Source: Spongiactinospora gelatinilytica
GTDB taxonomy: Bacteria > Actinomycetota > Actinomycetes > Streptosporangiales > Streptosporangiaceae
Direction of reading: 5' to 3'
DNA length: 57,388 nt
Assembly: GCF_003236385.1 (NCBI RefSeq)
Contig: NZ_POUA01000005.1
Span: 1-57,388, forward strand
Position numbers and translations under genes: made by a program. The notes under the pieces are model-generated. The model worked only from the letters and a program-made list of their open reading frames with translations, was not told the DNA's origin and ran no database searches. Shown piece by piece: positions 30,764 to 55,600 of the stretch; within the stretch, counting starts at the first letter, position 1, and the number at the start of each line of letters is the position of its first letter.

Positions 30764-30769
30764 GGAGAT

Positions 30770-33610: not shown

Positions 33611-33720
33611 GCCACTCCCTCCTTCAGCCCGGTAACTGCTAAAGCCAGAATATAGCCCTTACGTGGTCTACAGGTGCCGAATCGGAGTGTCGGGCGGCTT
33701 GGGTATTGTCCGGCGGTGGA

Positions 33721-37103: not shown

Positions 37104-37140
37104 GGACCCACATTCTCCTTCATGTGGTGCGGCCATGCTC

Positions 37141-37169
37141 TTGACCGGCGAGATCGACCTCATTATGTT
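37141..37169 (+). promoter_or_regulatory. Promoter of the glycosidase gene
   Basis: TTGACC (37141-37146) and TATGTT (37164-37169) are separated by 17 bases, a good sigma-70-type pair reading toward the gene at 37269. The stretch just downstream (37170-37200) is A+T-rich for this genome and could bind the ROK regulator. Confidence 0.55.
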
Positions 37170-37268
37170 CGACGACCATACAGAATCTTGGCATCAAAAG
37201 GGAGATTTCTTGCCCGCCCCCGCCGTAACTTTCCCCACGCCTGGTCCGCGCGACACCGACGGCAGACC

Positions 37269-39514: not shown

Positions 39515-39532
39515 GTTCCTCCTCGGCGAAGG

Positions 39533-40720
39533 TCAGAGCGGGCGTGCGTCGAGCACGCGGTTTCCGGCCAGGCGCATGCCCAGCCCGGGCGTCGCGGGCG
39601 CGGCGACACGGCCGTTGACGGGGGCGATCGGATCGGTGAGGAAGTGCTGGTAGAGCGGGCCGAGCCGGGCCAGGTACTCCATCTCGGGGATCACCGCCGG
39701 GCTCGCGGCGAAGGTGAGCGCGGCGTTGCACTGCAGGGACTGCCCGTGCGGGATGAACTGCCGTCCGGCCGCCGAGACGAGCGCGGAGATCTTGACCATC
39801 TCGCTGATGCCGCCGCCCCAGTGCGGGTCGGCCTGGTAGAGGTCCAGCAGGTCCTCGCGGAGCAGGCGGGCGATGCCCCAGCGGGTGTACTCGTGCTCGC
39901 CGCCGCTGATCCGGACCAGGCCGCCGAGGTCGCGGCGCAGCGCGGCGTACCCCGCGGTGTCGTCGGCGGGCAGCGGCTCCTCGATCCAGCGCAGCCGCAG
40001 CGGCGCGCACTCGCGGGCGACGTCCACGGTGAACGGGATGTCCCAGGAGCTCCAGGCGTCCAGCATGATGTCCAGGCCCGGACCCCCGGCCTCCCGTACC
40101 GTGGCGACCAGCTCCACCACCCGCGCAACCCCCCGGCGTCCGTCTCCCGGACCCCAGCGGGGGAACCACTTGATTCCGCCGAACCCCGCCGCGACCAGCT
40201 CACGGGTACGCCGGGCGACGTCCTCGACGGCCAGCGAGTCGCCCAGCGTGGAGACGTACGCGGGCGCCTCCTGGCGGGTGGGGCCGCCGAGCAGCACGTG
40301 CGCGGGAACGCCGAAGTACTGCCCGCGGACGTCCCACAGCGCGCAGTCCACCGCCGAGAGGGCGAGCATGCCCGTTCCCGCCCGGCCGTGGATCATCGAG
40401 CGGTACCCGAGGTCCCAGATCCGCTCGGCGGCCAGCGGGTCGGCGCCGAGCAACTGCGGGCGCAGCACGGTCAAGACGGTGTGCGCCTGCTGCTCGGACA
40501 GCACGGCGGTGGTCCCGGTGATCCCCTCGTCGGTGTCGACGTGCAGGAAGATCGAGCGGACCTCGACGCCGCCGTCGTCGCGGAGCGGCGGCTGGAGCGG
40601 CCCGTCGGCGGCGCGCTCGGGGTAGATGTCGGTGGGGCGCCGCAGCCGCTCGTCCCAGAGCGGGCCGGGCAGGCGCATCGAGCCGGTGTACTCGACGCAG
40701 CGGACGTCGGTGATTCTCAT
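39533..40720 (-). CDS. Mandelate racemase/muconate lactonizing enzyme-family protein
   Basis: 395 residues of the enolase superfamily: an N-terminal capping domain (MRITDVRCVEYTGSMRLPGP), then a barrel with IKWFPRWGPG, metal ligands in DIMLDAWSSWD, LRWIEEPLP and ISGGEHEY, and YQADPHWGGG and a PHGQSL histidine. Relatives dehydrate acid sugars or cycloisomerise lactones after abstracting an alpha proton. The exact reaction is not predictable. The frame is open far upstream but the ATG at 40720 starts the conserved strand. It is divergent from the molybdenum hydroxylase operon across 63 bases that contain an imperfect TTGTC-A-GATAA symmetry. Confidence 0.9.
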   Translation of the reverse strand: MRITDVRCVEYTGSMRLPGPLWDERLRRPTDIYPERAADGPLQPPLRDDGGVEVRSIFLHVDTDEGITGTTAVLSEQQAHTVLTVLRPQLLGADPLAAERIWDLGYRSMIHGRAGTGMLALSAVDCALWDVRGQYFGVPAHVLLGGPTRQEAPAYVSTLGDSLAVEDVARRTRELVAAGFGGIKWFPRWGPGDGRRGVARVVELVATVREAGGPGLDIMLDAWSSWDIPFTVDVARECAPLRLRWIEEPLPADDTAGYAALRRDLGGLVRISGGEHEYTRWGIARLLREDLLDLYQADPHWGGGISEMVKISALVSAAGRQFIPHGQSLQCNAALTFAASPAVIPEMEYLARLGPLYQHFLTDPIAPVNGRVAAPATPGLGMRLAGNRVLDARPL

Positions 40721-40783: not shown

Positions 40784-42976
40784 GTGCGAAACCCCGTCCG
40801 TAACCCGGAACAGGCTCAGGTAGGCCGTTCCGTGCCCGCCGAGCAGGCGCGCGAAATCGTCGTCGGCACCCTTGAATACGTCACCGACCTGCGGTTTCCC
40901 GGAATGCTGCACGGCGCGGTGACCCGCTCGGCGATCCCGCACGGCCGGATCGTCGCGATCGACACCACGAAGGCCGCCGCCATGCCGGGCGTGCGGGCCG
41001 TGCTCATCGGCGCGGACGTGCCGTGCAACCGGCTCGGCCCGGCCGACGTGGACGGCCCGGTGCTCGCCGACCAGCGGGTACGCCAGGTCGGCGAGGCCAT
41101 CGCCCTGGTCGCCGCCGTGGACGAGGGCACCGCCAGGCGCGCGGCCGAGGCCGTCGTGGTCACCGTGGAGCCGCTGCCGGTCGTCGCCGACCCCCGTACC
41201 GCCCTGTCGCCGGAGGTCCCGAAGCTGCACGAGGGCGGCAACCTGGCCGGGCGGATCGGCTTCGCCTCCGGCGACGTGGAGGCCGCCCTGGCGGCGGCCG
41301 ACGTCGTGGTCGAGCGCGTGGTCGGCACCGGGGCGCAGGAGCACGTGGCGATCGAGCCACCGGGCGGCGTCGCCCTGTGGGAGGCGGGCCAGGTGACGAT
41401 CTGGTGCGGTTCGCAGAACCCCGGCCTGCACCGCCGCAAGGTGGCGCGGGCGCTGAACGTCGAAATCGATGACGTGCGGCTGGTCGCCGGGCCGGTCGGC
41501 GGGGCCTTCGGCGCCCGCAACGACGATCCGATGCCGGTCTTCCTGGCCGTGCTCGCCAAGGCCGCGGGCGCGCCCGTGCACATGCGGATGACCCGCGAGG
41601 AGGTGATGGCGGCGGGGCCCAAGCGGCACCCGTTCCACACCACGGTGCGCGTCGGGTTCACCGAGGACGGCGACCTCGCCGCGAGCGACATGACCGCGCT
41701 CGCCGACACCGGCCCGTACGTCACCTCCGGCCCCAACGTGCTCAAGACCTCCGCCGAGATGTCGGTCGGGCCCTACCGGATGCCGGTCGCCCGCTTCGAC
41801 GGCCGGGTCGTCTATACCAACAACGCCAACGCCGGGGCCTTTCGCGGGTACGGCGTGCCGCAGGTCGCGTTCGCGCTGGAGACCGCGATCGACGAGGCCG
41901 CGGCCCGGCTCGGCATGGACCCGGTGGAACTGCGCATGCGCAACCTGCTGCGCGGCGGCGACCGGCACGGCCTGTACGGGCACGCCGTCACCCCGGGACT
42001 GCGCGCGGCCGAGACGCTGGCCGCCGCGGCGGCCGACGAATGGTGGGTCTCCCGCCGGGAATGGCAGCGCGCGGCCCGGGGCCCCTGGCGGCGCGGCACC
42101 GGGATCGCCATGGCGGTCAAGGGCGTCGGGCTGGGCAGCGGGCGGGGCGACGCCGCCCGCGCCCGGCTGATCTGCGACATCAACGGGCACGTCAGGATCT
42201 GGGCCGGACCGAACCACACCGGCCAGGCCATCGACGTGGCCTACCGGCAGATCGCCGCCGACGTGCTCGGCATGGACCCCGCCCGGATCACCGTCACCGT
42301 CGGGGACAGCCAGCTCGTGCCGGAGTCCGGCGCGACCGCCGCCTCCCGCAGCATGTACGCGGGAGGGTCCGCGGTCGCCGCGGTCTGCGAGCGCTACAAG
42401 GCGGCCCTGGCCGAGGCCGGCGGTCCCGCCCGGCTGGTCGAACTCGGCCGGGCCGAGTTCGAGGCCACCTTCCACCTGCCCGACGTGGCCGACCCCGGCC
42501 TGATCCCCCCGAAACGGCTCGGCGACCACGCCCCCCACCTGGTCTACGGCTGCTCGGCCCAGGTCGTCCGCCTGGAGGTGCACGAGCTGACCGGCGAGAT
42601 CCGCGTCGCGGGCGTCGTGTGCGCCGTCGACTGCGGCCGGGCGATCAACCCCGGCGCGGTGATCGGCCAGGCCGAGGGCGGCGTCGCGCAGGGGCTCGGC
42701 TTCGCGCTGATGGAGGAGCACCGGCTCGACGGCGGCCGCCCGCTGACCACCAGCCTGGAGAACTACCTCATCCCCACGGCCAGGGACGTCCCCGAGATCC
42801 GCACCCTCCTGGTGGAGGGCGACGAGCCCACCGGCCCGATGGGCGCCAAGGGCATGTCCGAGGTGGTCATCGTGCCGACCGGCCCCGCGGTCGCCGCGGC
42901 GGTCGCCGACGCGGTCGGCGTACGCCCCGCCCGCCTGCCCATCACCCCGGAACGCCTGCTGGAGGGACTCAGATGA
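40784..42976 (+). CDS. Xanthine dehydrogenase-family molybdopterin subunit
   Basis: 730 residues, the large catalytic subunit of a heterotrimeric molybdenum hydroxylase. Features are [24 protein letters not shown] at the start, [15 protein letters not shown] (molybdopterin contact), [14 protein letters not shown] (the Arg loop typical of hydroxylases rather than CO dehydrogenase) and [15 protein letters not shown] with the catalytic Glu near the C-terminus. It hydroxylates a carbon next to a ring nitrogen or an aldehyde with water as oxygen source. The GTG at 40784 gives a family-like N-terminus; the frame is open for 2 kb upstream without homology. First of ten tightly packed genes. Confidence 0.92.
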
Positions 42977-43398
42977 AGGTCAACGGCGTGCCCGTCACGC
43001 CCCCCGACCCCGACGCCAGGCTGCTCGACTACCTGCGCGACGACCTCGGCCTGATCGGGGCCAAGGAGGGCTGCGGGATGGGGGAGTGCGGCAGTTGCAC
43101 GGTGCTCATGGACGGCGTGCCGGTCTGCTCCTGCCTGGTGCTGGTCTGCCAGGCCGAGGACGCCGACGTCACCACCGTGGAGGGGCTGCGGCGCACCGCC
43201 CTTCAGGAGGCGTTCGTCACCGGCCAGGCCGTGCAGTGCGGGTTCTGCATCGCCGGCATGGTCGTCTCGGCCTCCGCCCTGCTGGCCGAGCACCCCGACC
43301 CCACCGACGAGCAGATCCGCGCCGGGCTCGAGGGCAACCTGTGCCGCTGCACCGGCTACGGCGCGATCGTGCGCGCGGTGCGCGAGGCGGCCCGATGA
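42973..43398 (+). CDS. Molybdenum hydroxylase [2Fe-2S] subunit
   Basis: This 141-residue subunit has two iron-sulfur domains: a plant-type ferredoxin ([17 protein letters not shown] then CSC) and a C-terminal helical domain (QCGFCIAGM and [10 protein letters not shown]). It carries electrons from the molybdenum site to the FAD subunit. Its ATG at 42973 overlaps the large-subunit stop (ATGA), and its own stop overlaps the FAD-subunit start in the same way. All eight cysteine ligands are present. Confidence 0.95.
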
Positions 43399-44240
43399 GC
43401 CCGCACCCGCGTACCGCGGCCGAGGTGGACCGGCTCGATCCGGCGCGCGCGCTGCTCGCCGGAGGCACCGACCTGCTGGTACGGCGGCGCGCCGGGCACC
43501 AGGGGGGCCCGCTCGCCGACGTCTCCCGGCTGCGCGACGCCCCCGCCCCGGTACGGCGTCTTTCCGATGGCTCGATCTGGCTGTCCGCGCTCGCCCCCCT
43601 CTCGGTCATCGACCGCGAACTGGGCGGGAAACTCCCCGGCCTGCGCGCGGCCATCGCCTGCTTCGCCTCCGGCCAGATCCGCAACCGCGCCACGCTCGGC
43701 GGAAACCTGGCCAACGCCTCCCCGGCCGCCGACGGCGTGCCACCGCTGGTGGTGGCCGGGGCCGTGCTGCGGCTGCGCGGGCCCGCGGGCCGCAGAGAGA
43801 TCCCGGTGACGGAGTTCGCGACCGGACCCGGCCGTACCCGGCTGGCCCCCGGCGAGTGGATCGAGAACATCGACGTGCCGCCGCAGCCCGCCCACGCGGG
43901 GTTCCGGAAGATCGCCGGGCGGCGGGCGCTCGCCATCTCCATCGTCAGCCTGGCCTGGACCTGGGACCGCGGCCCCGGCGGCGCGCTGACCGGCGTACGG
44001 CTGGCCGCCGGGGCGGTGGCCCCCGTGGTCGTCCGCTGCCCCGGCGCGGAGGCCGCGCTGGAAGGCCGCGCCCCCACGCCCGACGTGGTGGCCGCGGCGG
44101 TCGCGGCCCTCGGCCACGACATCAGCCCGATCAGCGACCTGCGCGCCTCCGCCGGATACCGGCGGGCCGCACTGGCCGGAGCGCTCACCGAAGCGCTCAC
44201 ACCGGCGCTCACCGAAGCGCCCGCAAGGAGGAACACGTGA
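43395..44240 (+). CDS. Molybdenum hydroxylase FAD-binding (CoxM-like) subunit
   Basis: 281 residues with the FAD loop [16 protein letters not shown] near 21-36, the second FAD contact [18 protein letters not shown], and the C-terminal CO-dehydrogenase flavoprotein domain ([19 protein letters not shown]). It passes electrons to an external acceptor. The tail [16 protein letters not shown] comes from a short in-frame DNA duplication near 44176-44222 and is probably neutral. The start ATG at 43395 and stop at 44240 each overlap the neighbouring gene by 4 bases. Confidence 0.93.
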
Positions 44241-45187
44241 AGACCACAGCCACCGTACGGCTGGATCGCCCGATCACCGAGGCGGCCGAGCTGGCCCGCC
44301 GGGCCGAGGACCTCGGCTTCGACGGGGTCTGGGTGGCCGACCACTACTTTCACCGCGACGCGACGGGGGCGCTGGCGCTGATGGCGGCGGCCACCGAGCG
44401 GGTCACGCTCGGCACCGCCGTGGTCAGCCCGCTGCTGCGGCACCCGGCGCTGCTGGCCGGCGCAGCCGCCACGATCAACGAGATCAGCGACGGCCGGTTC
44501 GTGCTCGGCATCGGCGCGGGCGGGTACGAGTTCGCCGCCGAACTCGGCATCCCGCCGCGCCGCCCGCTCGGCCTGACCGCCGAGGCGGTGCGGATCGTGC
44601 GCGAGCTGCACACCGGCCGGGCCGACGTCACCGGCGAGACGTTCACCACCCGCGGCGAACTGCGGTTCACCCCCGTCCCCACCCCGGTCTACCTGGCCGG
44701 GCGCGGCCCCAAGATGCTCGCCCTGGCCGGCGAGATCGGCGACGGCGTGATCACGCACGGGCTGTCCGGGCGGCACATCGACTACGTCAAGGAGAAGCTG
44801 GGCGGCCCCGGCACCGCCGTCGTGCTGATGCTCGACGTCGAGGTGGACCGCGACCGGGCGCGTGCCCTGGACGCGCTGCGCCCGCGCTGCATGGCGATGG
44901 CCGGCGGCTCCTACGCCGACGAGCTGATCGAGGTGTACGGCCTGGACCCCGCCGAGATCGGCGCGCTGCGGGCGGCGCTGCGCTCGGGCGACCGGGCCGC
45001 CGCCGGGCGGCTGGTCACCGACCAGATGGTGGACGCCTTCGGCATCGCCGGGCCGCCAGAACTCCTCAGGGACCGGCTCGCGGAGTTCGCCGCCGCCGGG
45101 ATCGACGAGGTGATCCTTTCCGTCGGCGGGGGCGATCTGGACGCCTCCACCGGACATCTGACCGAGCTAGCGAAAGCGGTGTTGTGA
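44237..45187 (+). CDS. LLM-class (F420 or FMN) oxidoreductase
   Basis: 316 residues in the luciferase-like family: [54 protein letters not shown], then [26 protein letters not shown]. The last segment is typical of the F420-dependent (Mer-like) branch, though FMN cannot be excluded. The GTG at 44237 follows AAGGAGG by 5 bases and overlaps the preceding stop. Within the operon it would provide a second redox step on the imported compound, after or before the molybdenum hydroxylase. Confidence 0.9.
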
Positions 45188-46305
45188 GAATGAGCCTTCC
45201 CGAGTCCGTCGTCGTCCTGGGATCCGGTGCGGGCGCGCTGTCGTGTTCGGTGGAACTGTCCCTGGCCGGGCTCAAGGTCACCCTGGCCGACCTGCCGCGC
45301 TTCGCCGACGGGGTGAACGCCGTCGGCGCCGCGGGCGAGATCCGGCTGCGCTGCCCCTGGCACGGTGAGACCGCCGCGCCGGTCGCCGCCACCGGCACCG
45401 ACCCGGCCGCCGCCATCGACGGCCAGGAGTTGATCGTCGTCTCGGTGCCCGCCTTCGGCCACCAGGCGTGGGCCGACCTGCTGGCCGCCGAGCTGAAGGA
45501 CGGGCAGTCGGTGCTGTGGGTGGGCGAGGGCGGCGGCGCGCTGACGCTGGCCGCGACGCTGCGCCGTACCGGACGGCGGCCCGCGGTGCACATCGCCGAG
45601 ACCAACAGCCTGCCCTACGGCGCGCGGGTCCGCGGCCCCGGCCTGATCACCGCCTCCCGCAAGTCCGGCGGCACCCTGGTCGCCGGCCTCCCCGCCGAGA
45701 ACAACCCGCTGGTCGCCATCGCCTGCAAGGTCTGGCCGTGGATGAGCCCCGCGGAGAACGTGTGGGAGACCACGCTGCTCAACTTCAACGCGATCGACCA
45801 CGTCCCGCCGATCATCTGCAACCTCGGCGCGATCGAGGGCCGGACCGGGTCGTTCCTGCTGTGGGGCGAGGGGGCCAGCCCGGCCGTCTCGCGCATGATC
45901 GAGCGGATCGACGCCGAACTGCTCGCCCTGCGCGGCGCGCTCGGCCTGACCAACACCGACGGCTACGCCGACTACCTGGTCGCCCAGGGGTTCGCGCCGC
46001 GCCGGGAACCGACGCTGCACGCCACCCTGCAGTCCTCCAGCTTCGCCGCCAGCACCTTCCCGTGCGGCCCCGACGCGCTCAAGAGCCGGTACCTGACCGA
46101 GGACGTGCCGTACGCCCTGGTCCTGATGGCCTCCATCGGCGACGAACTGGACATCCCCACCCCCACCATCGACAGCCTCATCCACCTGGCCTCGGTCGCC
46201 GCCGGCACCGACTTCCAGGCCGGCGGGCGCACCCTGGCCGACCTGGACCTCGCCGGCGCCGGCAGGGACGGGCTGCTGACCGCCGCCCGGGAGGGCCGGT
46301 GGTGA
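45184..46305 (+). CDS. NAD/NADP octopine/nopaline dehydrogenase-family protein
   Basis: The 373-residue protein has an N-terminal Rossmann domain (SVVVLGSGAGALSCSVELSLAGLKVTLAD, 29 residues from about 8), an NADP-type strand LIVVSVPAFGHQAWADLL and the C-terminal all-helical opine dehydrogenase domain (TTLLNFNAIDHVPPIICNLGAIE, then YADYLVAQGFAPR). Opine dehydrogenases join or split an amino acid and a keto acid at a secondary amine. In this operon it may break a C-N bond in an intermediate. Start is GTG 45184 (overlapping the previous stop) or ATG 45190. Confidence 0.88.
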   Translation: MRMSLPESVVVLGSGAGALSCSVELSLAGLKVTLADLPRFADGVNAVGAAGEIRLRCPWHGETAAPVAATGTDPAAAIDGQELIVVSVPAFGHQAWADLLAAELKDGQSVLWVGEGGGALTLAATLRRTGRRPAVHIAETNSLPYGARVRGPGLITASRKSGGTLVAGLPAENNPLVAIACKVWPWMSPAENVWETTLLNFNAIDHVPPIICNLGAIEGRTGSFLLWGEGASPAVSRMIERIDAELLALRGALGLTNTDGYADYLVAQGFAPRREPTLHATLQSSSFAASTFPCGPDALKSRYLTEDVPYALVLMASIGDELDIPTPTIDSLIHLASVAAGTDFQAGGRTLADLDLAGAGRDGLLTAAREGRW

Positions 46306-47609
46306 GCGACCTGCTGATCCGCGGCGGCACGCCGGTCACCGGCTACGCCGACCCCGCCCCGGCCGACCTGCTGGTCAGGGACGGACGGCTGGCCGACGGC
46401 CCGCCGCTCCCCGGCGCCGAGACCCTGGACGCCACCGGGCTGCTGGTACTGCCCGGCCTGGTCAACACGCACGACCACCTGCGGTCGCTGCTGCCGATGA
46501 CCCGCCGCGCCGACACCAGCGGCCTGGCACAGATGATCGAGGCGGGGAAGCTGGCCGGGGCCGCGGCGACCCCGGAGGACTACCGGGCGCTCACCGCGCT
46601 CGCGGCGGCCCGGATGGTGCTGTCCGGCGTGACCACGGCGGTGGACCACGTCTACCCGCTGCACCGCCCCGGCATGCTCGCCGCCGTCGCGGCCGGGCAC
46701 GCCGACGTCGGGCTGCGCGCGCACCTGGCGTACGGGCTGACCGAGGACTACGAGGAGCAGATCCGGCTGGCCGTGGCCGCGGCCGACGACGAGGTACCCG
46801 CCGGCCGCCTGTACCTGGCGCCGGTCTCGCTGCGCCAGACCTCGGCCGACGGCTACCGGGCCGCCGCCCGCGCGGCCGAGCGCACCGGCCTGCGCCTTTA
46901 CACCCACATCGCCGAGACGCGCGAGGAGGTGGACAAGTGCCTGGCCGAGCACGGGGTGCGGCCGGTGGAACTGCTGCACCAGGCGGGGTTCCTGCGCCCG
47001 GGCACCGTCCTGGTGCACTGCGTCCACCTGTCGGAGCGTGAGATCGGGCTGCTCGCCGACAACGAGGTGGCGGTCGCCTACTGCCCGTCCAACCACCTGC
47101 GCCTGGCCAAGGGGTTCGCCCCCGTGGTCGCGCTGCGGGAGGCGGGCGTACGCGTCGGGCTGGGCGTCGACGGCATGGACGACCTGTTCACCGAGATGCG
47201 CCAGGCCGTCTACGCGCAGGGACAGGCCGCGGGCCGGCCCGGCGTGCTCGGTTCGGACGCGGCGCTGCGGATGGCGACCGGCGAGGGCACGGCCGCCATC
47301 GGCGAGCCGGACGCCGGGCGGCTGCGCGCAGGCGAACGCGCCGACCTGATCACGCTGCGCCCGGGGACGTCCATGCGCCCGCTGGCCGACCCGGTGCAGT
47401 CATGCGTCCACCGCGCCCACGGGCAGCACGTGTCCGACGTGCTGGTGGACGGCGAGTTCGTGGTGAGGGACGGCCGGCTCACCAGAGCCGGCGAAACCGA
47501 GCTGGCCGACCGCGCGTGGCGGGTCACGCGCGACCTGGCCGGCCGGACCGGTCGCGAGCACGCGGCCGACTGGCAGTGGGGCCCGGCGGCCCCACAGGAA
47601 ATGCCTTAA
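46302..47609 (+). CDS. ATZ/TRZ-type amidohydrolase
   Basis: 435 residues of the metal-dependent amidohydrolase superfamily. The N-terminal LIRGGTPVTGY strand and LLVLPGLVNTHDHLRS (His-x-His metal site near 61-63) are followed by LYTHIAETREEVDKCL, VLVHCVHLSEREI and VGLGVDGMDDLFTEMRQAV (catalytic Asp). These resemble deaminases and chlorohydrolases acting on ring C-N or C-X bonds (guanine deaminase, AtzA, TrzN). A hydrolytic deamination of a ring produced by the molybdenum hydroxylase is a reasonable inference. The GTG at 46302 overlaps the upstream stop by 4 bases. Confidence 0.92.
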   Translation: MSDLLIRGGTPVTGYADPAPADLLVRDGRLADGPPLPGAETLDATGLLVLPGLVNTHDHLRSLLPMTRRADTSGLAQMIEAGKLAGAAATPEDYRALTALAAARMVLSGVTTAVDHVYPLHRPGMLAAVAAGHADVGLRAHLAYGLTEDYEEQIRLAVAAADDEVPAGRLYLAPVSLRQTSADGYRAAARAAERTGLRLYTHIAETREEVDKCLAEHGVRPVELLHQAGFLRPGTVLVHCVHLSEREIGLLADNEVAVAYCPSNHLRLAKGFAPVVALREAGVRVGLGVDGMDDLFTEMRQAVYAQGQAAGRPGVLGSDAALRMATGEGTAAIGEPDAGRLRAGERADLITLRPGTSMRPLADPVQSCVHRAHGQHVSDVLVDGEFVVRDGRLTRAGETELADRAWRVTRDLAGRTGREHAADWQWGPAAPQEMP

Positions 47610-47626
47610 CAGGAAAGGCGACAGCC

Positions 47627-48922
47627 ATGAGTCAAACCCCCAACATGCGGATGAGCCGCCGCGGGCTGCTCCGCGCCACCGGCGGCATCGCCGCCACGGC
47701 CGTGCTGGCCGCGTGTGGCAACGGCGGCGGCACGGGCGGCGGTTCCGGCGGCGGCGCGAAGGGCACGCTGACGCTGTGGGCCTCCACCGCGTTCGCGGGC
47801 GACGCCAAGGCGGCGCTGCGGACCGCCGCGCAGGAGTACGGCGGCAAGCAGGGGCTCACCATCAACGTCGAGGGCTTCCCGGCCAACGACCTGGCCAAGA
47901 AGATCACCACGGCGCTGGCCGGCGGCGGCGGTCCCGACATCGTCGTGGCCGACGTCTCCTCGATCCCGCAGTTCGCGGCCTCCAAGATGCTGGTGGACGT
48001 GACCGCCCGGTTCAAGGCGGCCCAGGGGGAGTTCTTCGCGGGCAACGTGGCCGCGGCCAGCTTCAAGGACGCGGTCTACGCCGTGCCGTACGACACCTCC
48101 AACGTGGCGCTGCTGTGGAACAAGAAGCTGTTCCAGCAGGCCGGCATCCAAAGCCCGCCCGGCACCTGGGATGAGCTGCTGGCCTCGGCCAAGGAGCTGA
48201 CCGGCGGCGGGCGGCACGGGTACATGCTGGGCGCGCAGGGTTATGGATCGTTCCTGTTCTGGCCGTGGCTGTGGCAGAACGGCGGGCGCATCCTGGACGA
48301 CGCCGGGACCAAGGCGCTCTTCAACGCCCCCGAGGGGCTTGAGGCGTGGAACTTCTACGCCGGCCTGCACCTGACCCACGGCGTGGTCCCGCCGACCTTC
48401 CTCGGCGTCACCCAGGCCTGGGACCAGTACATCCAGCCCTTCCTCACCGAGAAGGTGGCGATGCTGGCCATCGGCGACTGGGGGCTCGCGCCCATCGCCA
48501 AGGGCAACCCCGGCCTGGAGTACGGCGTGGCCTCGCTGCCCAAGGGCAAGGAGAGCGCCACCGTCCTCGGCGGCAACGCGATCGGCATCACCAGCGCCTG
48601 CAAGAACGTGGACGCGGCCTGGGGGTTCGTGTCCTGGCTGACCTCGGCCGGCCAGGAGAAGGTGCTGCGGGACGGCTACCAGCGGATCCCGGCGCGCACC
48701 GACGTCGGCAACGGCTCGATGGCCGGTCTGGACGAGGCCCATCAGATCTTCATCCAGCAGGCCGCCTCGGCCCGGCCACGCCCGGCGGTGACCGCGTGGG
48801 GCGACATCGAGTGGCAGGTGATGGCCAACGCCTGGGACTCGGTCATCCAGAAGAAGAAGTCACCGCGACAGGCGCTCAACGAAGCCGCGACGGCCGCCAC
48901 CCAGGCACTGTCGCGGGGATAG
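47627..48922 (+). CDS. ABC importer substrate-binding lipoprotein (sugar type, Tat signal)
   Basis: The 431-residue extracellular binding protein has a twin-arginine signal followed by a lipobox (SRRGLLRATGG ... VLAACGNGGG, lipidated Cys near 28) and a Gly/Ser linker. The mature part has family-1 solute-binding features: GTLTLWASTAFAGDAK, PDIVVADVSSIPQFA, YAVPYDTSNVALLWNKKLFQQAGI, WDELLASAKELTGGG and AWGFVSWLTSAGQEKVL. It captures the substrate outside the membrane for the two permeases that follow. The ATG at 47627 has AGGAAAGG 9 bases upstream; this is the first gene in the operon with its own clear spacing from the one before (17 bases). Confidence 0.95.
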   Translation: MSQTPNMRMSRRGLLRATGGIAATAVLAACGNGGGTGGGSGGGAKGTLTLWASTAFAGDAKAALRTAAQEYGGKQGLTINVEGFPANDLAKKITTALAGGGGPDIVVADVSSIPQFAASKMLVDVTARFKAAQGEFFAGNVAAASFKDAVYAVPYDTSNVALLWNKKLFQQAGIQSPPGTWDELLASAKELTGGGRHGYMLGAQGYGSFLFWPWLWQNGGRILDDAGTKALFNAPEGLEAWNFYAGLHLTHGVVPPTFLGVTQAWDQYIQPFLTEKVAMLAIGDWGLAPIAKGNPGLEYGVASLPKGKESATVLGGNAIGITSACKNVDAAWGFVSWLTSAGQEKVLRDGYQRIPARTDVGNGSMAGLDEAHQIFIQQAASARPRPAVTAWGDIEWQVMANAWDSVIQKKKSPRQALNEAATAATQALSRG

Positions 48923-48931
48923 AGGCCCTTG

Positions 48932-49870
48932 ATGGCAACGACTCACCTCAAGGAGTCGGCGGCGGCCCCGGCCTCCCGCGTCGCGTCCGCCCCGCGGCGG
49001 CCGCGGGGGGGCCGGCGGCCGTGGGCCTACCTGGCTCCCGCCGTGCTCCTGCTGGGCGGCGTACTCGGCTATCCGGTGCTCGACGGGCTGTGGACCAGCT
49101 TCAACCACAGCATCCTGACCCAGCCGGGCGCCGACCGGTTCACCGGGCTGTCCAACTACGCGGCCGTGCTGACCGACCCGGTGCTGCTGACCGCGGCCTG
49201 GCACACGGTGCTCTGGGGCGTGGCCAACCTGGTGCTCCAGTTGGTGCTCGGGTTCGCGCTCGCCATGCTCATGCACCAGAAGCTCGCCGGGCGGGCGTTC
49301 TTCCGCAGCGTGGTGATCATCCCATGGATCGTTCCGTCCGTGGTGGTGGCGCTGGTCTGGCGATTCCTGCTCGACCCGACCTCCGGGCCGCTGAACCAGC
49401 TCCTGCTGAACCTCGGCCTGATCGACCAGTCGCCGCAGTGGCTGGCGGACGAGTCCACCGCGATGCCGGTGCTCATCCTGCTCAGCACCTGGAAATGGAC
49501 GCCGCTGGTGGCGGTCATCCTGCTGGCCGGGCTGCAGACCATCCCCAAGGAACTGCACGAGGCGGCGATGCTGGACGGCGCGGGCGCCCCGCAGCGGCTG
49601 CGGTACGTCATCATCCCGGGCATCCGCACATCGATCGCGCTGGCCGGCCTGCTGACCGTGGGCTACTCGGTCAACAACTTCAACGGCATCTGGATGTTCA
49701 CCAGGGGCGGACCGGCCGGGGCCACCGAGACCCTGACCACGCTCGCCTACCAGTACGCGTTCACGCAGTTCGACTTCGGGCGGGCGGCCGCGGTGGCGAT
49801 GATCCTGTTCGCCTTCCTGTTCCTGCTGAGCACTGTCTACTTCTATCTGGTCGAGGGGCGGAAGCGATGA
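48932..49870 (+). CDS. ABC sugar-type permease, first subunit (MalF-like)
   Basis: 312 residues with about six membrane helices, starting with AYLAPAVLLLGGVLGYPVLDGLWTSF, and the permease loop EAAMLDGAGAPQRLRYVIIPGI that contacts the ATPase. A long Arg/Pro/Ala-rich cytoplasmic N-terminus of about 30 residues precedes helix one. Start is ATG 48932, 9 bases after the binding-protein stop; an overlapping TTG at 48929 is less likely. No ATP-binding subunit is encoded in the operon, so a shared MsiK-type ATPase elsewhere must energise it. Confidence 0.94.
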   Translation: MATTHLKESAAAPASRVASAPRRPRGGRRPWAYLAPAVLLLGGVLGYPVLDGLWTSFNHSILTQPGADRFTGLSNYAAVLTDPVLLTAAWHTVLWGVANLVLQLVLGFALAMLMHQKLAGRAFFRSVVIIPWIVPSVVVALVWRFLLDPTSGPLNQLLLNLGLIDQSPQWLADESTAMPVLILLSTWKWTPLVAVILLAGLQTIPKELHEAAMLDGAGAPQRLRYVIIPGIRTSIALAGLLTVGYSVNNFNGIWMFTRGGPAGATETLTTLAYQYAFTQFDFGRAAAVAMILFAFLFLLSTVYFYLVEGRKR

Positions 49871-50688
49871 GGGCCTTGGGCAGGCCGCTGGTGTACGCCG
49901 GCGCGCTGGTGGCCGTGGTGCTGTTCGCGGGGCCGTTCGTGTTCATGGTGCTGTCCAGCTTCAAACAGCCGCAGGAGCTGAACGGGGTCGTCAACGGGTT
50001 CCTGCCGCAGTCGCTCTACACCGGCAACTACGAGAACCTGTTCGCCACCGGGAACTTCGCGCTCTACTTCGTCAACAGCGCCGTGGTCGCGCTGCTCACC
50101 ACGGTGCTCGCCCTGGTCGTGGCGATCCTGGCCGGGTACGCGCTGGCCCGCTTCCCCTTCACCGGGCGCAGGCTGCTGCTGCTCGCGGTGGTGGCCATGC
50201 AGATGTTCCCCGCGGTGCTGATGGCGATCCCGCTGTACAAGATCCTGCGCAACCTAGGCATGCTGGACGCGCGCAGCGGGCTGATCCTGGTCTACGTCAC
50301 CTTCGCGCTGCCGTTCTGCATCTGGATGATGCGCAACTACTTCGCCACCGTCCCCAAGGAGATCGAGGAGGCCGCGCTCATCGACGGGTGCGGGCACTTC
50401 CGGGCGCTGTGGCGGGTACTCCTGCCGCCCGCGCTGCCCGGGGTCACCGCGGCCGGCGCGTTCAGCATGATCCTGGCCTGGGACGAGTTCCTGTACGCCA
50501 ACACCTTCGTCAACAGCGACGAGAAGCGCACGCTGTCGGTCGGCCTGGACTCCCTGGTCGGCCAGTACACCACCGACTGGGGCCAGCTCCTGGCGGGCGG
50601 CGTGCTGATGACCCTGCCGGTGGTGCTGATCTTCGCGTTCCTGCAGCGCTACCTCACCCAGATCGCGGGCGGCGGGGTGAAGGGGTGA
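49867..50688 (+). CDS. ABC sugar-type permease, second subunit (MalG-like)
   Basis: 273 residues, about six membrane helices, beginning RPLVYAGALVAVVLFAGPFVFMVLSSFK. It has the conserved cytoplasmic loop EEAALIDGCGHFRALWRVLLPPALPG that docks the ATPase, and a C-terminal ending of the MalG type (FLQRYLTQIAGGGVKG). It forms the membrane channel with the preceding permease. The ATG at 49867 overlaps the previous stop by 4 bases, and its own stop overlaps the next start. Confidence 0.95.
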   Translation: MRALGRPLVYAGALVAVVLFAGPFVFMVLSSFKQPQELNGVVNGFLPQSLYTGNYENLFATGNFALYFVNSAVVALLTTVLALVVAILAGYALARFPFTGRRLLLLAVVAMQMFPAVLMAIPLYKILRNLGMLDARSGLILVYVTFALPFCIWMMRNYFATVPKEIEEAALIDGCGHFRALWRVLLPPALPGVTAAGAFSMILAWDEFLYANTFVNSDEKRTLSVGLDSLVGQYTTDWGQLLAGGVLMTLPVVLIFAFLQRYLTQIAGGGVKG

Positions 50689-51887
50689 CGCTGCTGCGCG
50701 GCGCGCTGCTGCCCGGCGGGGAGACCGCGGACGTACGGCTGGCGGACGGCCTGGTCGAAGAGGTCGGCGACCTCACCCCGCGCCCGGGGGAGGCGGCCGG
50801 CGACCTTGACGGATGGCTGCTGCTCGGCGCGTTCGCCGAGCCGCACGTCCACCTGGACAAGGCGTTCACCGCGGACCGGGCGGCCAACGCCACGGGCGAT
50901 CTCGCCGGGGCGATGCTGGGCTACGCGGGCGTGGCCGCCGCGCCCGACCCCGCCGGCATCCGCGGCCGGGCGCGGACGGCGCTGCGGCTGTTCCTGGCCG
51001 CCGGGACCACCGCCGTGCGCTGCCAGACGGGCTGCGGGCCGCTTTCCGGGGTGAGCGCGGTGCGGGCGATGGCCGCGCTGCGCGAGGAGGTCGCCACCGT
51101 CATCGACCTGCAGATCGTGGCGCACGCCGCCGTACCGCCGGGCGGGCCGTCCGCGCACCGCGAACTGCTGCGCGCGGCCGTGGCCGAGGGCGCCGACCTG
51201 ATCGGCGGCAACCCGTTCAGCGAGGACGACCCGCGCGCCGCGCTGGAGACCTGCTTCGAGGTCGCCGCCGAGCTGGGGTGCGGGCTCGACCTGCACGTGG
51301 ACGAGAGCACCGACACCACAGGGCTGACCCTGCCGGACGTCGCCCGGCTGGCCGCCGCCCACCCCTTCCCGGTCACCGCGGCGCACTGCGTGGCGCTGGG
51401 CGCGCTGCCCGGGCCGGTGGCGCTGGAGGCGGCCGCCCAGACCGGCGCGGCCGGCGTCGGCGTGGTCACCCTGCCCGCGACCAACCTCTACCTACAGGGC
51501 CGAAAGGACGGCCGGCGCGGGCTGACCGCGATCGGCGCGCTGCGCGGGCACGGCGTCACCGTCGCCGCGGGCGCGGACAACGTCCAGGACCCGTTCAACC
51601 CGACCGGCCGCTGCGATCCGCTGGAGACCGCCTCGCTGCTGGTCACCGCGGGACACCAGGGGGTGCCGGAGGCCGCCGCCATGGTGGGCGCCGACGCCCG
51701 CGCGCTGCTCGGGCTGCCGCCCGCCGGTCCCGAGCCGGGCGCGGTGGCCGACCTGGTCGCGCTACGCGCGGGCTCGCTCGGCGACGCCGTGGCCCGCGCG
51801 CCCGCCGACCGTATCGTGTGGCGGCGCGGACGCGTGGTGGCCAGGACGATCGCCCGCACCGAGTTCGCCGCGGGCATCGACCTCTAG
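50685..51887 (+). CDS. Cytosine-deaminase-like amidohydrolase
   Basis: 400 residues of the amidohydrolase superfamily: LLLGAFAEPHVHLDKAFT (His-x-His near 52-54), LDLHVDESTDTTGLTLPDVARLAAAH, VTAAHCVALG, and VAAGADNVQDPFNPTGRCDPLETA, the last closely resembling the Asp-containing block of cytosine/isoguanine deaminases. It likely hydrolyses a C-N bond in a small ring or amide. It closes the operon: the GTG at 50685 overlaps the permease stop, and its stop overlaps the convergent membrane protein gene by 4 bases. A second amidohydrolase lies at 46302, implying two successive hydrolytic steps. Confidence 0.9.
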   Translation: MTLLRGALLPGGETADVRLADGLVEEVGDLTPRPGEAAGDLDGWLLLGAFAEPHVHLDKAFTADRAANATGDLAGAMLGYAGVAAAPDPAGIRGRARTALRLFLAAGTTAVRCQTGCGPLSGVSAVRAMAALREEVATVIDLQIVAHAAVPPGGPSAHRELLRAAVAEGADLIGGNPFSEDDPRAALETCFEVAAELGCGLDLHVDESTDTTGLTLPDVARLAAAHPFPVTAAHCVALGALPGPVALEAAAQTGAAGVGVVTLPATNLYLQGRKDGRRGLTAIGALRGHGVTVAAGADNVQDPFNPTGRCDPLETASLLVTAGHQGVPEAAAMVGADARALLGLPPAGPEPGAVADLVALRAGSLGDAVARAPADRIVWRRGRVVARTIARTEFAAGIDL

Positions 51888-52540
51888 GCCCCGGCGGCCT
51901 CGGGGGCGGTGCGGTCCCGATATCCGCAAAGCCGCATCCCGGCCTGCACCAGCGGGCCGATGGCCAGGGTGAACACGATCGTGCCGAGCCCGGCGGAGCC
52001 GCCGAGGGCGATCCCGAGGGCGAGGATCGCCACCTCGATCTGGAACCTGGCCAGGCGGATGGAGATGCCGAACCTGCGGTTGATGCCGGTCATCAGGCCC
52101 TCACGCGGCCCGGCCCCCAGCCGGGGCGCGAGGTACATGCCCTGGCCGAGCGCGAACAGGGCGACCCCGCCGGTCATCAGCGCGCCGCGCGACCACCACT
52201 GCGTGGCGGGCCCGGTGACGGTCAGCAGCCGGTCGATGACGATCCCGGCGACGAACACGTTGAGCACCGTGCCCACGCCCGGCCGCTCGCGCAGCGGCCA
52301 CCAGGGCAGCAGCGCGGCGACCCCCACGAGGATGACGACCAGGCCGAAGCCGAGGCCGGTCCGGGCGGCCAGCCCCTGGTGCAGCACGTCCCACGGGCCG
52401 AGACCCAGCTCGGCCCGGATCAGCATGGTGATCGCGACGCCGTTCAGCGTCAGCCCGGCCACCACCATCGAAAGACGCACCACCAGGTGCCGCTCCGCCG
52501 CGTCCCTGACGACGACCCGACGCCACGGAACGCGGCCCAT
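51884..52540 (-). CDS. YczE/YitT-type integral membrane protein
   Basis: 218 residues with about five hydrophobic helices and the family's early segment VAITMLIRAELGLGPWDVLHQGLAARTGLGFGLV (34 residues from about 32), followed by GTVLNVFVAGIVIDRLL and LGAGPREGLMTGINRRFGISI. Relatives of Bacillus YczE are often encoded beside NRPS genes; the function is unknown, possibly linked to peptide production. The ATG at 52540 is preferred because GGGGGGAG lies 4 bases upstream; an ATG at 52564 would add eight residues. It is 84 bases after the NRPS stop on the same strand and may share its transcript. Confidence 0.8.
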   Translation of the reverse strand: MGRVPWRRVVVRDAAERHLVVRLSMVVAGLTLNGVAITMLIRAELGLGPWDVLHQGLAARTGLGFGLVVILVGVAALLPWWPLRERPGVGTVLNVFVAGIVIDRLLTVTGPATQWWSRGALMTGGVALFALGQGMYLAPRLGAGPREGLMTGINRRFGISIRLARFQIEVAILALGIALGGSAGLGTIVFTLAIGPLVQAGMRLCGYRDRTAPEAAGA

Positions 52541-52624
52541 GTGCTCCCCCCACCGTCGCCTCACAGGGGGAGTTCCACGTTCCCACGGCCCTTCCCCGCG
52601 ACGGAACCCGCCGCGCCGTACCGG

Positions 52625-55600
52625 CTACACAGGTGCCTTGAGCAGCGCGGACACCGCGGACCGGTAGCGTTCGCACAGCGTGGCGACGGTCTCCGGGCGG
52701 TGCAGGTCGCGGCTGTAGACCACCCGTACGCCCAGCCGCCCCTCGGCGACGGCGGCGTGAAAGGACAGCGCCCATGGCCGCAGCGCCCGGTCGTCGCGGA
52801 CCCTCATGCGGCGTTCCGGCGCCTGCCGCAGCGGCACCGCCCGTGGCCCGGGCTCGACGGAACCCAGGTAGTTGAATGACACCTGCGCCGGGGACGGCGG
52901 CACCAGCGGGCCGTCAGGATGGCAGTGGCGCAACAGGCCATAGGACAGACCGGCGTGCGGCACCGCGCGCCATCGGGAGCCGATCTCCCACATGGCCCGC
53001 GCCGGATCCGCGGCCGGGGCGATCGGGACGCGCAGCGGGAAGACGGAGGAGAACCAGCCCATCGTGCGGCTGAGGTCCATGCCGGGATCGGCGGGCCGCC
53101 GGCCGTGGTCGAACAGGTCCACGACCAGGTCGCCGGCGGCGCCGATCCACTCGCCGAGCGCCAGCGCCAGCGCGGTGAGCAGGGCTTCGTGGACCCGGCC
53201 GGCGAAGGCCGCGCGAAAGGCGTCCGTCGTGGCGGCGTCGATCCGGAACCCGGCGACGGTCACCGACCCTTCGTCCGCCGGGCCGAGGACGTGGTCGCGT
53301 GGTGGCCGGTACCCGCCGGGGGCGGCCTGTGCCGTCCAGAAGCCGCGGTCGCCGAGCACGGCGGGGTCGCGGGCGTGCTCGGCCAGCCACCGCGCCCAGG
53401 TGGCGTACGAGACGGTCGCCGGGGGCGAGGACATCGCCTGGCCGGCGGCACGCAGGTCGTAGGCGGTGAACAGCTCTTCGCGCAGCATCGCCGTGGAGGG
53501 GCCGTCCACGGCGAGGTGGTGGACGCTGAGGAGCAGCAGGTCGGGCTGTCCGGGCGGGGTGGTGCCGTACAGGAGGAAGAGCAGTGGGCCGCCGGCGAGG
53601 CTGCGCCCGGCCTGGAGTCGCGCGGCGTGCGCGTCGAGGACGTCCATCCGGCCGGCGGGCGGGACCTCCGAAAGGTCGATCGGGAGTACCAGGGGCCCGC
53701 TGGTCTCGCCCCGTTCTCCAATGGTCTGCCGCCAGCCGTCCTGCCGGCGTGTGAAGCGCAGCCGCAGGGCGTCGTGGCGGTCGATGACCTCGATCGTCGC
53801 TCGTTCCAGCAGGCCGATGTCGATGCGCCGGTCCACCTCGTAGACGATCACCTGGTCCCAGTGCTGCGGGGCCGGATTGTCCAGGCCGAAGAACCGGTGC
53901 TGGATCGGCGTCAGCGGCACCGGAGAGTCGTCCGGCGGGGCCTCGGGCGGCGGGGGACCGGGCGGTTCGACGGTCACGACGGCGCTCAGCTCGGCGATGG
54001 TCGGACGGCTCAGGACGTCCTGCGGGCTCAGGTGCAGACCGTGCTCCCTGGCCTGGGCGACGACGCCGAGACTGCTGAGGGAGTCGCCGCCGAGGGCGAA
54101 GAAATCGTCGTGCGGCGTGATCGGCGAGCGGCCGAGCACCCGCTCCCAGATCGCGGTGAGCCGCCGCTCGACCGTGCCGGAGGCGGCCCGGGCGCTTCGC
54201 GGAGCGGTGCGGGGGGACGGCAGACGGGCGTGGTCGATCTTTCCGCCGGCCGAGACCGGCAGGGCGGGCACGGTGACCCACGCGGACGGGATCATGTGGT
54301 CCGGCAGCCGCCGCGCGAGCCAGTCGCGCAGCTCGCGCGGGGCGCCGGACGCCTCCCCGGCCGGGACGATCCAGGCGACCAACCGGCCGTCCCGCAGGCC
54401 CACCGCGGCCTCGGCGATGCCGGGGTGCCAGGCCAGGACGGCGGACACCTCCACGGGTTCCACGCGATGACCACGGATGTCGAGCTGGTCATCGGCACGG
54501 CCCAGGAACTCCAGCCGCCCGCCGGGCAGCCACCGGACGAGGTCCCCGGTCCGGTACAGCCGCGCGCCCGGCGGGCCCGCGGGGTCGGCCACGAACCGCG
54601 CGGCGGTCAGCGCCGGCCGCCCGACGTACCCGCGGGCGACACCGGCCCCGCCGATCCACAACTCACCGGCCACCCCCACCGGCACCGGCCGCATCAGACC
54701 ATCCAGAACCCTGACCACGGTCCCACCCACCGGCCGCCCGATCGGAACCGTCACGCTCCCCGTGCCGCTCGTGTCCGGCGTGGCGGTGATGTGCTCGACC
54801 GTGGTGGTGATGGTCGCCTCGGTCACGCCGTAGGCGTTGACCACCGACACGTGTTCGGCTCCCGGCGCCTGCCAGTCCCGCAGAGCGGCGGCAGGGACCG
54901 GGGAACCGCCCACCACGACCAGGCGCGGCGACGGGGGCAGGGCGGTGCCGAGGCGGCGGCGTTCCGCTGCCCAGTGCGCCCAGTAGCCGGTAGGGAGATT
55001 GGCCACGGTGACGCCCGCCTGCCCCAGGTGGGCGGTCAGTTCCGGTACCGAGACCACCCGGTGCGGCGCGATCTCGACACAGCCTCCGGCCAGCAAGGTC
55101 GGGAGGATCTCCTCCGCCGCGACGTCGAAGCCCAGCGCGGAGAACTGCAGCACGCGGTCGTCCGCGCCCAGCCCGAAGGCGTCGATCATGGCGTACGCGT
55201 GGTTCAGCAGCGCGCGGTGCTCGACCATCACGCCGTTGGGCGCGCCGGTCGTGCCGGAGGTGTAGATCACATAGGCGAGGTCGTCCGGGGCGGGCCGGTG
55301 TTCCAGCGGCCCGTCCGGCTGCGCGGCGATGTCGCCGGCCGCGCAGTCCAGGCAGAGGACCCGCGCCGCGCCGAGGAGCGCCGGGTCGTAGGCGATGTGC
55401 CGGCCGTCCGCGTCATGGCCGGTCAGGACCAGCCGGGCGCCGCTGTCCCGCAGCATGTCGCGAAGGCGTTCCGGCGGGTGGTCGTGGTCCATCGGCAGGT
55501 ACGCCGCGCCCGACTTGAGCACGCCCAGCAGCGCGACCAGCGTCTGCGGCGTCCGTGCGCCCAGGACACCGACAAGGAACTCCGGGCCCGCCCCGGCCCG

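Follow-up and report, generated by a model that had tools for sequence, protein, structure and literature searches.

A 57,388-nt stretch of the Spongiactinospora gelatinilytica genome (positions 1 to 57,388 of contig NZ_POUA01000005.1, hereafter the window; the genome comprises 8.0 Mb in 957 contigs) carries ten genes at 40784-51887 that encode a three-subunit molybdenum (Mo) hydroxylase (coxL, coxS and coxM), a luciferase-like oxidoreductase (LLM), an opine-dehydrogenase-family protein (ODH), two amidohydrolases (AH1 and AH2), and the binding protein and two permeases of a sugar-type importer. We found that these genes appear to belong with four others upstream, among them a predicted glucosylglycerate hydrolase (GH), and that the set recurs in 13 genomes from three families. 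Judged from these comparisons, the gene set is a real unit, and we tentatively read it as a catabolic island for a nitrogen heterocycle of the purine or pterin kind linked to glucosylglycerate, a reading to which we give slightly less than an even chance. The strongest clue to the substrate is that two unrelated enzymes for glucosylglycerate occupy the same slot, namely GH in some clusters and a glycoside hydrolase family 13 (GH13) protein in others.

Extent and recurrence of the gene set

All ten reading frames of the core lie on the + strand and each scored over its own Pfam cut-off, in agreement with an initial annotation of this DNA, which had given the same genes in the same place and order and assigned them to the same families. 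That annotation had also set the bounds of the operon at 40784 and 51887. Similarity to the Spongiactinospora rosea and Spongiactinospora sp. TRM90649 genomes spans the ten genes and four more upstream (35910-40720), and because the set, with two slots exchanged, is found in 13 genomes from three families, we assign these four to the same unit, which on this comparison is one of about 14 genes starting near 35910:

35910-37163, - strand: ROK-family transcriptional regulator (ROK), divergent from GH; Pfam ROK, 162 bits
37269-38579, + strand: GH, predicted glucosylglycerate hydrolase of the GH63 type; NF047898, 636 bits against a cut-off of 550
38531-39514, - strand: HADH, D-2-hydroxyacid dehydrogenase; Pfam 2-Hacid_dh_C, 173 bits
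39533-40720, - strand: ENOL, enolase-superfamily protein, sugar-acid dehydratase-like; MR_MLE_C, 167 bits
40784-42976, + strand: coxL, Mo-binding subunit of a xanthine dehydrogenase-type hydroxylase; MoCoBD_1/2
42973-43398, + strand: coxS, [2Fe-2S] subunit; Fer2_2 and Fer2, with two Cys motifs in the translation
43395-44240, + strand: coxM, FAD subunit; FAD_binding_5 and CO_deh_flav_C
44237-45187, + strand: LLM, luciferase-like oxidoreductase; Bac_luciferase, 209 bits; nearest to F420-dependent Mer enzymes
45190-46305, + strand: ODH, octopine/opine dehydrogenase family; Octopine_DH, 126 bits; alternative start GTG 45184
46302-47609, + strand: AH1, 8-oxoguanine-deaminase/TRZ-ATZ-like amidohydrolase; Amidohydro_1, 136 bits
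47627-48922, + strand: SBP, extracellular sugar-type solute-binding protein; SBP_bac_8/1
48932-49870, + strand: P1, CUT1-type permease; BPD_transp_1
49867-50688, + strand: P2, CUT1-type permease; BPD_transp_1
50685-51887, + strand: AH2, cytosine-deaminase/AtzC-like amidohydrolase; Amidohydro_3, 78 bits

Seven of the nine junctions in the core had been described as 4-bp overlaps. Six of these are certain (coxL/coxS, coxS/coxM, coxM/LLM, ODH/AH1, P1/P2 and P2/AH2), and the SBP gene is flanked by gaps of 17 bases (AH1-SBP) and 9 bases (SBP-P1). The seventh, LLM/ODH, is a 4-bp overlap if ODH starts at GTG 45184 and a 2-base gap if it starts at ATG 45190; because the homologue in G513, a genome of another genus in the same family, has its first Met at the position of the latter, ATG 45190 is the more likely start and six overlaps are likelier than seven. 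Of the sugar-type ATP-binding cassette (ABC) importer that had been proposed, the binding protein and both permeases are present, and an ATPase is encoded by none of the unit's 14 genes; actinomycetes use shared importer ATPases such as MsiK. Comparing the window with both Spongiactinospora relatives, we obtained ratios of nonsynonymous to synonymous substitution rates (dN/dS) of 0.08-0.35 for all 14 genes, with GH identities of 95.6% and 86.7%. A promoter and terminator scan yielded no sigma-70-like site and one terminator-like site that did not rise above shuffled sequence.

Downstream of AH2, and convergent with it over a 4-bp overlap, lies a YitT-like membrane protein gene (51884-52564, - strand; by eye), a homologue of which (230 bits) is found near the G513 cluster at L059:1358-1975 (- strand). 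Next comes a gene resembling those for nonribosomal peptide synthetases (NRPS-like; 52625-57367, - strand; by eye), which reaches almost to the window end. Similarity to TRM90649 stops at window position 52535, before the NRPS-like gene, which we accordingly ruled out as a member of the unit; since TRM90649 is unaligned from that point, the gene probably reflects a separate gain or loss. On the upstream side, translations suggested by eye a RecD-like helicase (33706-35907, + strand) and a sirtuin-like deacetylase (30440-31621, + strand).

We used ODH as the principal probe for the distribution of the set. The genome samples share members, and scoring in the large ones was confined to a few top candidates from each genome, which makes the counts given here lower bounds. 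A pattern-based scan of named genomes, sensitive to close relatives only, found two ODH loci, in S. rosea LHW63015 (97% identity) and TRM90649 (92%), and G001 and G002, the other two genomes of the window's genus, likewise gave 97% and 92%. Among 60 relatives the probe matched three, namely the window itself and two others of its genus, and among 16 genomes of the G513 genus it matched one, G513; within families it matched 3 of 22 genomes in one denoted f21 and 7 of 24 in another denoted f116. A nine-row ODH profile matched 7 of 238 genomes in the order of f116 (six from f116 and one weak match, at 211 bits) and, for the order of f21, 3 of 22. At E 0.001, 45 of 396 phylum-wide genomes had a match, none of them above 166 bits except that of the window, and a four-row profile at 1e-10 found 7 of 394 class-wide genomes, five of them, the window included, above 450 bits. 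The set is rare, occurring in 5 of the 394 genomes sampled over the class, the window's included.

At the 29 loci listed for the 44 other phylum-wide genomes with an ODH match, no LLM or AH1 match was found (about 1.5 kb on each side where the contig allows), nor was one found in five longer ODH stretches (L066-L070). Among 297 genomes of the order, AH1 at E 1e-60 was confined to the window's genome and G513, and AH2 at E 1e-50 matched eight genomes; near the AH2 relatives in G036, G703 and G711 (47-51% identity), G681 and G650, we found no ODH or AH1 match. The G036 relative (50%) lies inside a tryptophan-kynurenine-like degradation set (L060 8772-18333), and that of G711 (47%) adjoins a BMP-type (nucleoside) ABC importer (L063 7821-12147), both recognised by eye. 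A plasmid collection searched with ODH, AH1 and AH2 gave no such set among the matches listed, and the same was true of nine annotated regions.

The 13 genomes comprise three of Spongiactinospora, seven of f116 and three of f21 (in one of which, G768, the cluster is split over two contigs), and two slots of the set are exchanged between them. The order in f116 is ROK (divergent), GH, coxL, coxS, coxM, LLM, ODH, AH1, SBP, P1, P2, AH2, a major facilitator superfamily (MFS) transporter (named by eye), ENOL and HADH, followed by F420-dependent glucose-6-phosphate dehydrogenase (FGD) in five of the seven and XdhC in six. The f21 order is GntR, coxL, coxS, coxM, LLM, ODH, AH1, SBP, P1, P2, ENOL, HADH, a third amidohydrolase (AH3) and GH13. 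In Spongiactinospora the HADH-ENOL pair is inverted and still adjoins the operon. HADH and ENOL are each present in 13/13 full clusters, and AH2 in 10/13, with AH3 in its stead in the three from f21. ROK occupies the same position in S. rosea and TRM90649 and is present in 7/7 f116 clusters. By eye, the ROK-GH intergenic regions of f116 (G1026, G1035 and others) hold a palindrome-like GTTCAG-N3-CTGAAC or GTTCA-N5-TGAAC 3' of a TTGACG box, which may be the ROK operator, and in G831 a palindrome, ACCAATATATTGGT, lies upstream of GntR.

Pairwise identities of coxL, LLM, ODH, AH1, SBP, ENOL and HADH were correlated with one another (r 0.94-0.98; 12 genomes and 66 pairs, G768 and G513 excluded), as expected for a set inherited together, although species kinship alone would yield much of this correlation. 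The initial annotation had argued that the genes belong together, would have dropped its reading had the set been conserved in no other genome or matched a characterised pathway, and had proposed a search in other genomes. The recurrence in 13 genomes, the order kept across genera and the dN/dS values all favour its view, and the open-licence literature that we searched (titles and the beginnings of abstracts) held no description of this set, as that annotation had surmised.

G513 carries a smaller, stand-alone version. Here LLM, ODH and AH1 are adjacent (47, 56 and 49% identity), and the importer differs, consisting of an NMT1-like binding protein, an ATPase and a permease (the last by eye). 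The cluster further contains a GntR-like regulator, a distant HADH, the dihydroxyacid dehydratase IlvD (824 bits) and an NpdG-like F420 reductase, with an AH3 relative further on; the 29 kb read gave no match to either the Mo hydroxylase or GH.

Predicted activities of the encoded enzymes

The closest solved relatives of GH, whose score exceeds the glucosylglycerate hydrolase family cut-off, are structures of the Mycolicibacterium hassiacum glucosylglycerate hydrolase (GH63, PDB 5ohc), and we examined the residues named for that enzyme in excerpts of its report (PMC6608630). The catalytic Asp182 and Glu419 and the glucose site were kept in 10/10 cluster copies, as were the direct glycerate contacts (Tyr36, Trp40, Tyr88, Arg216 and Tyr375) and Phe89, Trp177 and Tyr222. 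His78 was kept in 4/10 copies, and the tunnel residues 212, 214, 215, 432 and 433 were variable. The same excerpts state that the M. hassiacum enzyme rejects glucosylglycerol and glucosylglycolate. On these residues GH looks specific, with 2-O-alpha-glucosyl-D-glycerate as its predicted substrate.

No GH was found in the f21 clusters, where a GH13 protein takes its slot, and no GH13 was found in the window. The f21 protein is sucrose phosphorylase-like (159 bits against a cut-off of 334), and its best solved relative is a glucosylglycerol phosphorylase. All three copies have the (T/S)ETN motif, as TETN, together with a loop-A Glu (position assigned by eye), which the available parts of PMC7178133 give as marks of glucosylglycerate phosphorylase.

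Among solved chains, LLM is closest to F420-dependent methylene-tetrahydromethanopterin reductases (Mer; 1z69, 150 bits), the next kind being represented by 1rhc at 70 bits; it falls below the Mer equivalog cut-offs (195 against 276 and 167 against 349 bits). Because its nearest solved relatives use F420 and some neighbouring genes are of kinds that reduce F420, we infer that reduced F420 (F420H2) is most likely its cofactor. F420 also serves in picrate catabolism. Both f116 FGD copies that were scored exceed the TIGR03554 cut-off of 420 (464 and 466 bits), and the NpdG-like protein of G513 reached 143.8 against 149.8 bits for TIGR01915, the stretch scored spanning profile positions 53-219 of 220. 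A glucose-6-phosphate route to F420H2 (FGD) thus accompanies a sugar-releasing enzyme in five clusters, and an NADPH route (NpdG-like) is found in G513, where the stretch read gave no GH; as it sets a single G513 against five f116 genomes, the pairing is no more than a hint. Elsewhere in the window, 7722-8183 (- strand) gives a weak match (41-49 bits) to LLM-type proteins.

The Mo hydroxylase has the full three-subunit complement, with MoCoBD, Fer2/Fer2_2 and FAD_binding_5 occurring together, and a GAKGMxE motif, which presumably holds the catalytic Glu of coxL, was present in 12/12 copies read. CoxL scored best against xanthine dehydrogenases (pucD, 522 bits with a cut-off of 784; XdhA, 435 with a cut-off of 780), below both cut-offs, and 325 bits against glyceraldehyde dehydrogenase. 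The nicotine and nicotinate hydroxylases are Mo hydroxylases of the xanthine dehydrogenase family as well. MoaA lies close by in G1015. On Paracoccus sp. SMMA_5 plasmid pNSM5b (L044, 9791-19759), an AH2 relative (36%) is annotated near XdhC, a nucleoside triphosphate (NTP) transferase, three Mo-hydroxylase subunits and a nucleobase symporter; this partial likeness, the nearest among the annotated regions, also points to nucleobase-type rings.

ODH scored 126 bits against 30 for Octopine_DH, placing it in the opine dehydrogenase domain family, and matched 1bg6 over nearly its whole length (E 1.4e-36). H204, which aligns with a His of 1bg6, and D305 were invariant in 9/9 aligned sequences, and we take them to be the catalytic His/Asp of opine dehydrogenases; ODH is predicted to split an N-carboxyalkyl amine in an NAD(P)-dependent manner. 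In AH1, H57, H59, H202, H239 and D290 were invariant in 11/11 aligned sequences, presumably the metal-ligand pattern of amidohydrolases. AH1 scored 225 bits against the 8-oxoguanine deaminase model PRK08203 (cut-off 532), and AH2, compared with the curated cytosine deaminase and AtzC models, stayed below every cut-off, with PRK07583 its best match (191 against 403 bits). Of the two AH3 copies scored with PRK08203, that of G816 passed (545 bits) and that of G513 did not (495). AH3 further matched 2paj (E 7.5e-77), which we take to be an isoxanthopterin deaminase. According to excerpts of PMC5270733, isoxanthopterin deaminase activity occurs in AH3's family. The best NCBIfam match of ENOL was L-rhamnonate dehydratase, at 192 bits against a cut-off of 393.

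A proposed pathway and its alternatives

Starting from the computed gene set, its conservation and families, the exchange of glucosylglycerate enzymes and the F420 enzymes near some clusters, we infer a heterocyclic substrate and the following order of steps. The CUT1 importer, powered by an ATPase from outside the unit, would take up a glycoside. Its sugar portion would be freed as 2-O-alpha-D-glucosyl-D-glycerate or be converted by way of it; this compound would be cut by GH through hydrolysis or, in other genera, by the GH13 phosphorylase, and HADH would act on a 2-hydroxy acid, D-glycerate or a relative. The Mo hydroxylase would hydroxylate the ring next to a nitrogen to give a lactam, LLM would reduce a ring C=N or C=C with F420H2, AH1 would hydrolyse the now non-aromatic ring to an amine with a carboxyalkyl group (an opine-type bond), and ODH would break this bond by oxidation to give an amine and a 2-oxo acid. 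An exocyclic amino group would be removed by AH2 or AH3, the action of HADH and ENOL on the oxo acid would yield a 2-oxo-3-deoxy acid, and the freed glucose could yield F420H2 by way of glucose-6-phosphate and FGD.

The presence of an opine dehydrogenase would be explained because, on chemical reasoning, a reduced and hydroxylated pyrazinone-type ring leaves an N-(1-carboxyalkyl)amine when hydrolysed. Both a nitrogen heterocycle and an opine-like conjugate had been suggested as substrates. We consider the former likely because coxL scores best against xanthine dehydrogenases and one of the two AH3 copies scored exceeds the cut-off for 8-oxoguanine deaminase; the latter suggestion gives way, the opine-type bond being more likely an intermediate. 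The earlier interpretation is thus partly supported, having missed the sugar part (2-O-alpha-glucosylglycerate) and the likely F420 dependence. A more specific version, in which the substrate's own glucose yields F420H2 via FGD to reduce the Mo-hydroxylated purine or pterin ring, which an amidohydrolase then opens to an opine for ODH to split, we regard as rather unlikely as a whole. We know of no earlier catabolic route that breaks a fused nitrogen heterocycle via an opine and F420, and this self-fuelled route, if true, would be the first.

Several observations weigh against the glucosylglycerate-heterocycle reading. To our knowledge, no natural compound joins 2-O-alpha-glucosylglycerate to a purine- or pterin-like ring. 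None of the listed families has a curated cut-off that coxL, LLM, AH1, AH2 or ENOL reaches, and coxS scored 163 bits against glyceraldehyde dehydrogenase and 155 against xanthine dehydrogenase, a slight preference that makes aldehyde oxidation possible. FGD was not found in two of the seven f116 clusters, and FGD, NpdG and XdhC were found neither in the window nor in the relatives' 21-kb loci or the f21 stretches. A search in Spongiactinospora for an operator common to the promoters of GH and coxL found none, and G513 retains just the LLM-ODH-AH1 trio with the distant HADH and AH3.

Glucosylglycerate is also an osmolyte that nitrogen-starved mycobacteria accumulate, and the unit might serve two substrates, using a nitrogen heterocycle as nitrogen source and coupling this to glucosylglycerate mobilisation, with GH and GH13 acting on the cell's own or scavenged glucosylglycerate. 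We treat this coupling as the main rival because excerpts of PMC6608630 link glucosylglycerate hydrolase to recovery from nitrogen starvation; the ring-degrading set would provide the nitrogen, and the unchanged direct glycerate contacts of GH are those expected for plain glucosylglycerate. However, the unit's only importer is sugar-type and sits amid the ring enzymes, and in G513, which is without the sugar importer, the 29 kb read contains no GH. In f116 the matches to GH and coxL overlap or lie close together (16118/16115 in G1035, for example) and the f21 run ends with the phosphorylase gene, which together argue for one pathway. We consider the two-substrate explanation unlikely, though it keeps a real chance of being correct.

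The ring might instead be supplied as a pterin alpha-glucoside of cyanobacteria, of the biopterin or neopterin type. Here the Mo enzyme would hydroxylate C7, F420H2 would reduce N5=C6, and the N8-C7 lactam would be opened to a pyrimidine N-(1-carboxyalkyl)amine, from which ODH would release a triaminopyrimidine and a 2-oxo polyhydroxy acid for HADH and ENOL. One chain would then account for the Mo hydroxylase, the F420 enzyme, the opine dehydrogenase, the hydroxyacid dehydrogenase and the dehydratase. The nearest relative of LLM reduces a pterin, and AH3 is similar to 2paj, an isoxanthopterin deaminase. According to excerpts of PMC3546692, cyanobacteria are rich in tetrahydrobiopterin glucosides, which an alpha-glucosyltransferase produces. 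The expected end of a biopterin side chain may be visible in G513, where short broken frames of an acylating acetaldehyde dehydrogenase and a 4-hydroxy-2-oxovalerate aldolase lie between the IlvD and NpdG-like genes (L058:18090-18966). These frames are truncated, however, and the aldolase scored over its cut-off in 4 of the 14 genomes searched (in G513, elsewhere in the genome), the window's best match being a 128-bit piece. Moreover, biopterin side chains would not yield glucosylglycerate, and the aglycone for which GH and GH13 both seem to be specific is glycerate; in excerpts of its report the M. hassiacum hydrolase rejects glucosylglycerol. We set aside a biopterin glucoside as the principal reading on the glycerate site of GH and the aldolase count, and the pterin version is held as a rival, an improbable one, because a glycerate-specific GH does not fit it.

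About as improbable is an osmolyte oxidation that involves no heterocycle. Imported glucosylglycerol would be oxidised by LLM, as an F420 alcohol dehydrogenase, and by the Mo enzyme, as an aldehyde oxidase, to glucosylglycerate for GH and HADH, which would suit the best score of coxS, the presence of the F420-dependent alcohol dehydrogenase 1rhc among the relatives of LLM, the sugar-type importer and the glucosylglycerate enzymes. It leaves two amidohydrolases, ODH and ENOL without a role, sits poorly with coxL, which matches xanthine dehydrogenases (522 and 435 bits) better than glyceraldehyde dehydrogenase (325), and would have F420 used for oxidation, when FGD and NpdG make F420H2 and so suit reduction. 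Ordinary purine breakdown by a xanthine dehydrogenase and guanine-type deaminases fits the families of coxL and AH1-AH3, but it has no place for LLM, ODH, GH, ENOL or the sugar importer, the coxL scores fall short of the xanthine dehydrogenase cut-offs, and no uricase or allantoinase was recognised by eye among the gene starts (no search was aimed at either), so that we judge it very improbable. That the unit supplies, or confers self-resistance for, the NRPS-like gene directly downstream on the other strand is hardly credible, TRM90649 having the whole unit with similarity that ends before that gene.

If the glucosylglycerate-linked heterocycle reading is right, the unit would add an undescribed catabolic pathway combining Mo hydroxylation, F420H2 reduction and an opine dehydrogenase, three elements that we did not find together in the open-licence literature searched. 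Its exchangeable glucosylglycerate enzymes narrow the search for the substrate to testable candidates. Orphan opine dehydrogenases would gain a use, as would the glucosylglycerate phosphorylases of organisms that are not believed to accumulate this compound, whose presence is a puzzle raised in the available parts of PMC7178133. Were the ring a pterin, the unit would lead on to asking by what route bacteria take the pterin core apart after deaminating it; for Variovorax, excerpts of PMC9513972 describe pterin deamination of folic acid and leave the later steps open.

Relation to known systems

With the M. hassiacum glucosylglycerate hydrolase, the cluster GH shares its catalytic, glucose-site and direct glycerate residues; unlike that enzyme, it is encoded in a putative heterocycle operon with an importer, and His78 and the tunnel residues vary. 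The f21 protein has the same TETN motif and loop-A Glu as the GH13_18 glucosylglycerate phosphorylases, but it belongs to the f21 clusters, was not found in the window, and its best solved relative acts on glucosylglycerol. The Mo hydroxylase agrees with the xanthine dehydrogenase family (PucD/XdhABC) in its three-subunit layout, Pfam domains and GAKGMxE motif, with XdhC near the f116 clusters, and differs in that coxL lies below every listed equivalog cut-off and is set amid predicted F420, opine and glucosylglycerate enzymes. LLM belongs to the same fold family as Mer and has predicted F420-reducing partners (FGD or the NpdG-like protein) near some clusters, yet scores below the Mer cut-offs. 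Among the 8-oxoguanine and isoxanthopterin deaminases, cytosine deaminase and AtzC, the closest approach is made by AH3 of G816, which passes a cut-off, while AH1 keeps the metal pattern and scores below, as does AH2. ODH, finally, is alike in sequence to N-(1-D-carboxylethyl)-L-norvaline dehydrogenase (1bg6), whereas its operon context is not that of an opine pathway.

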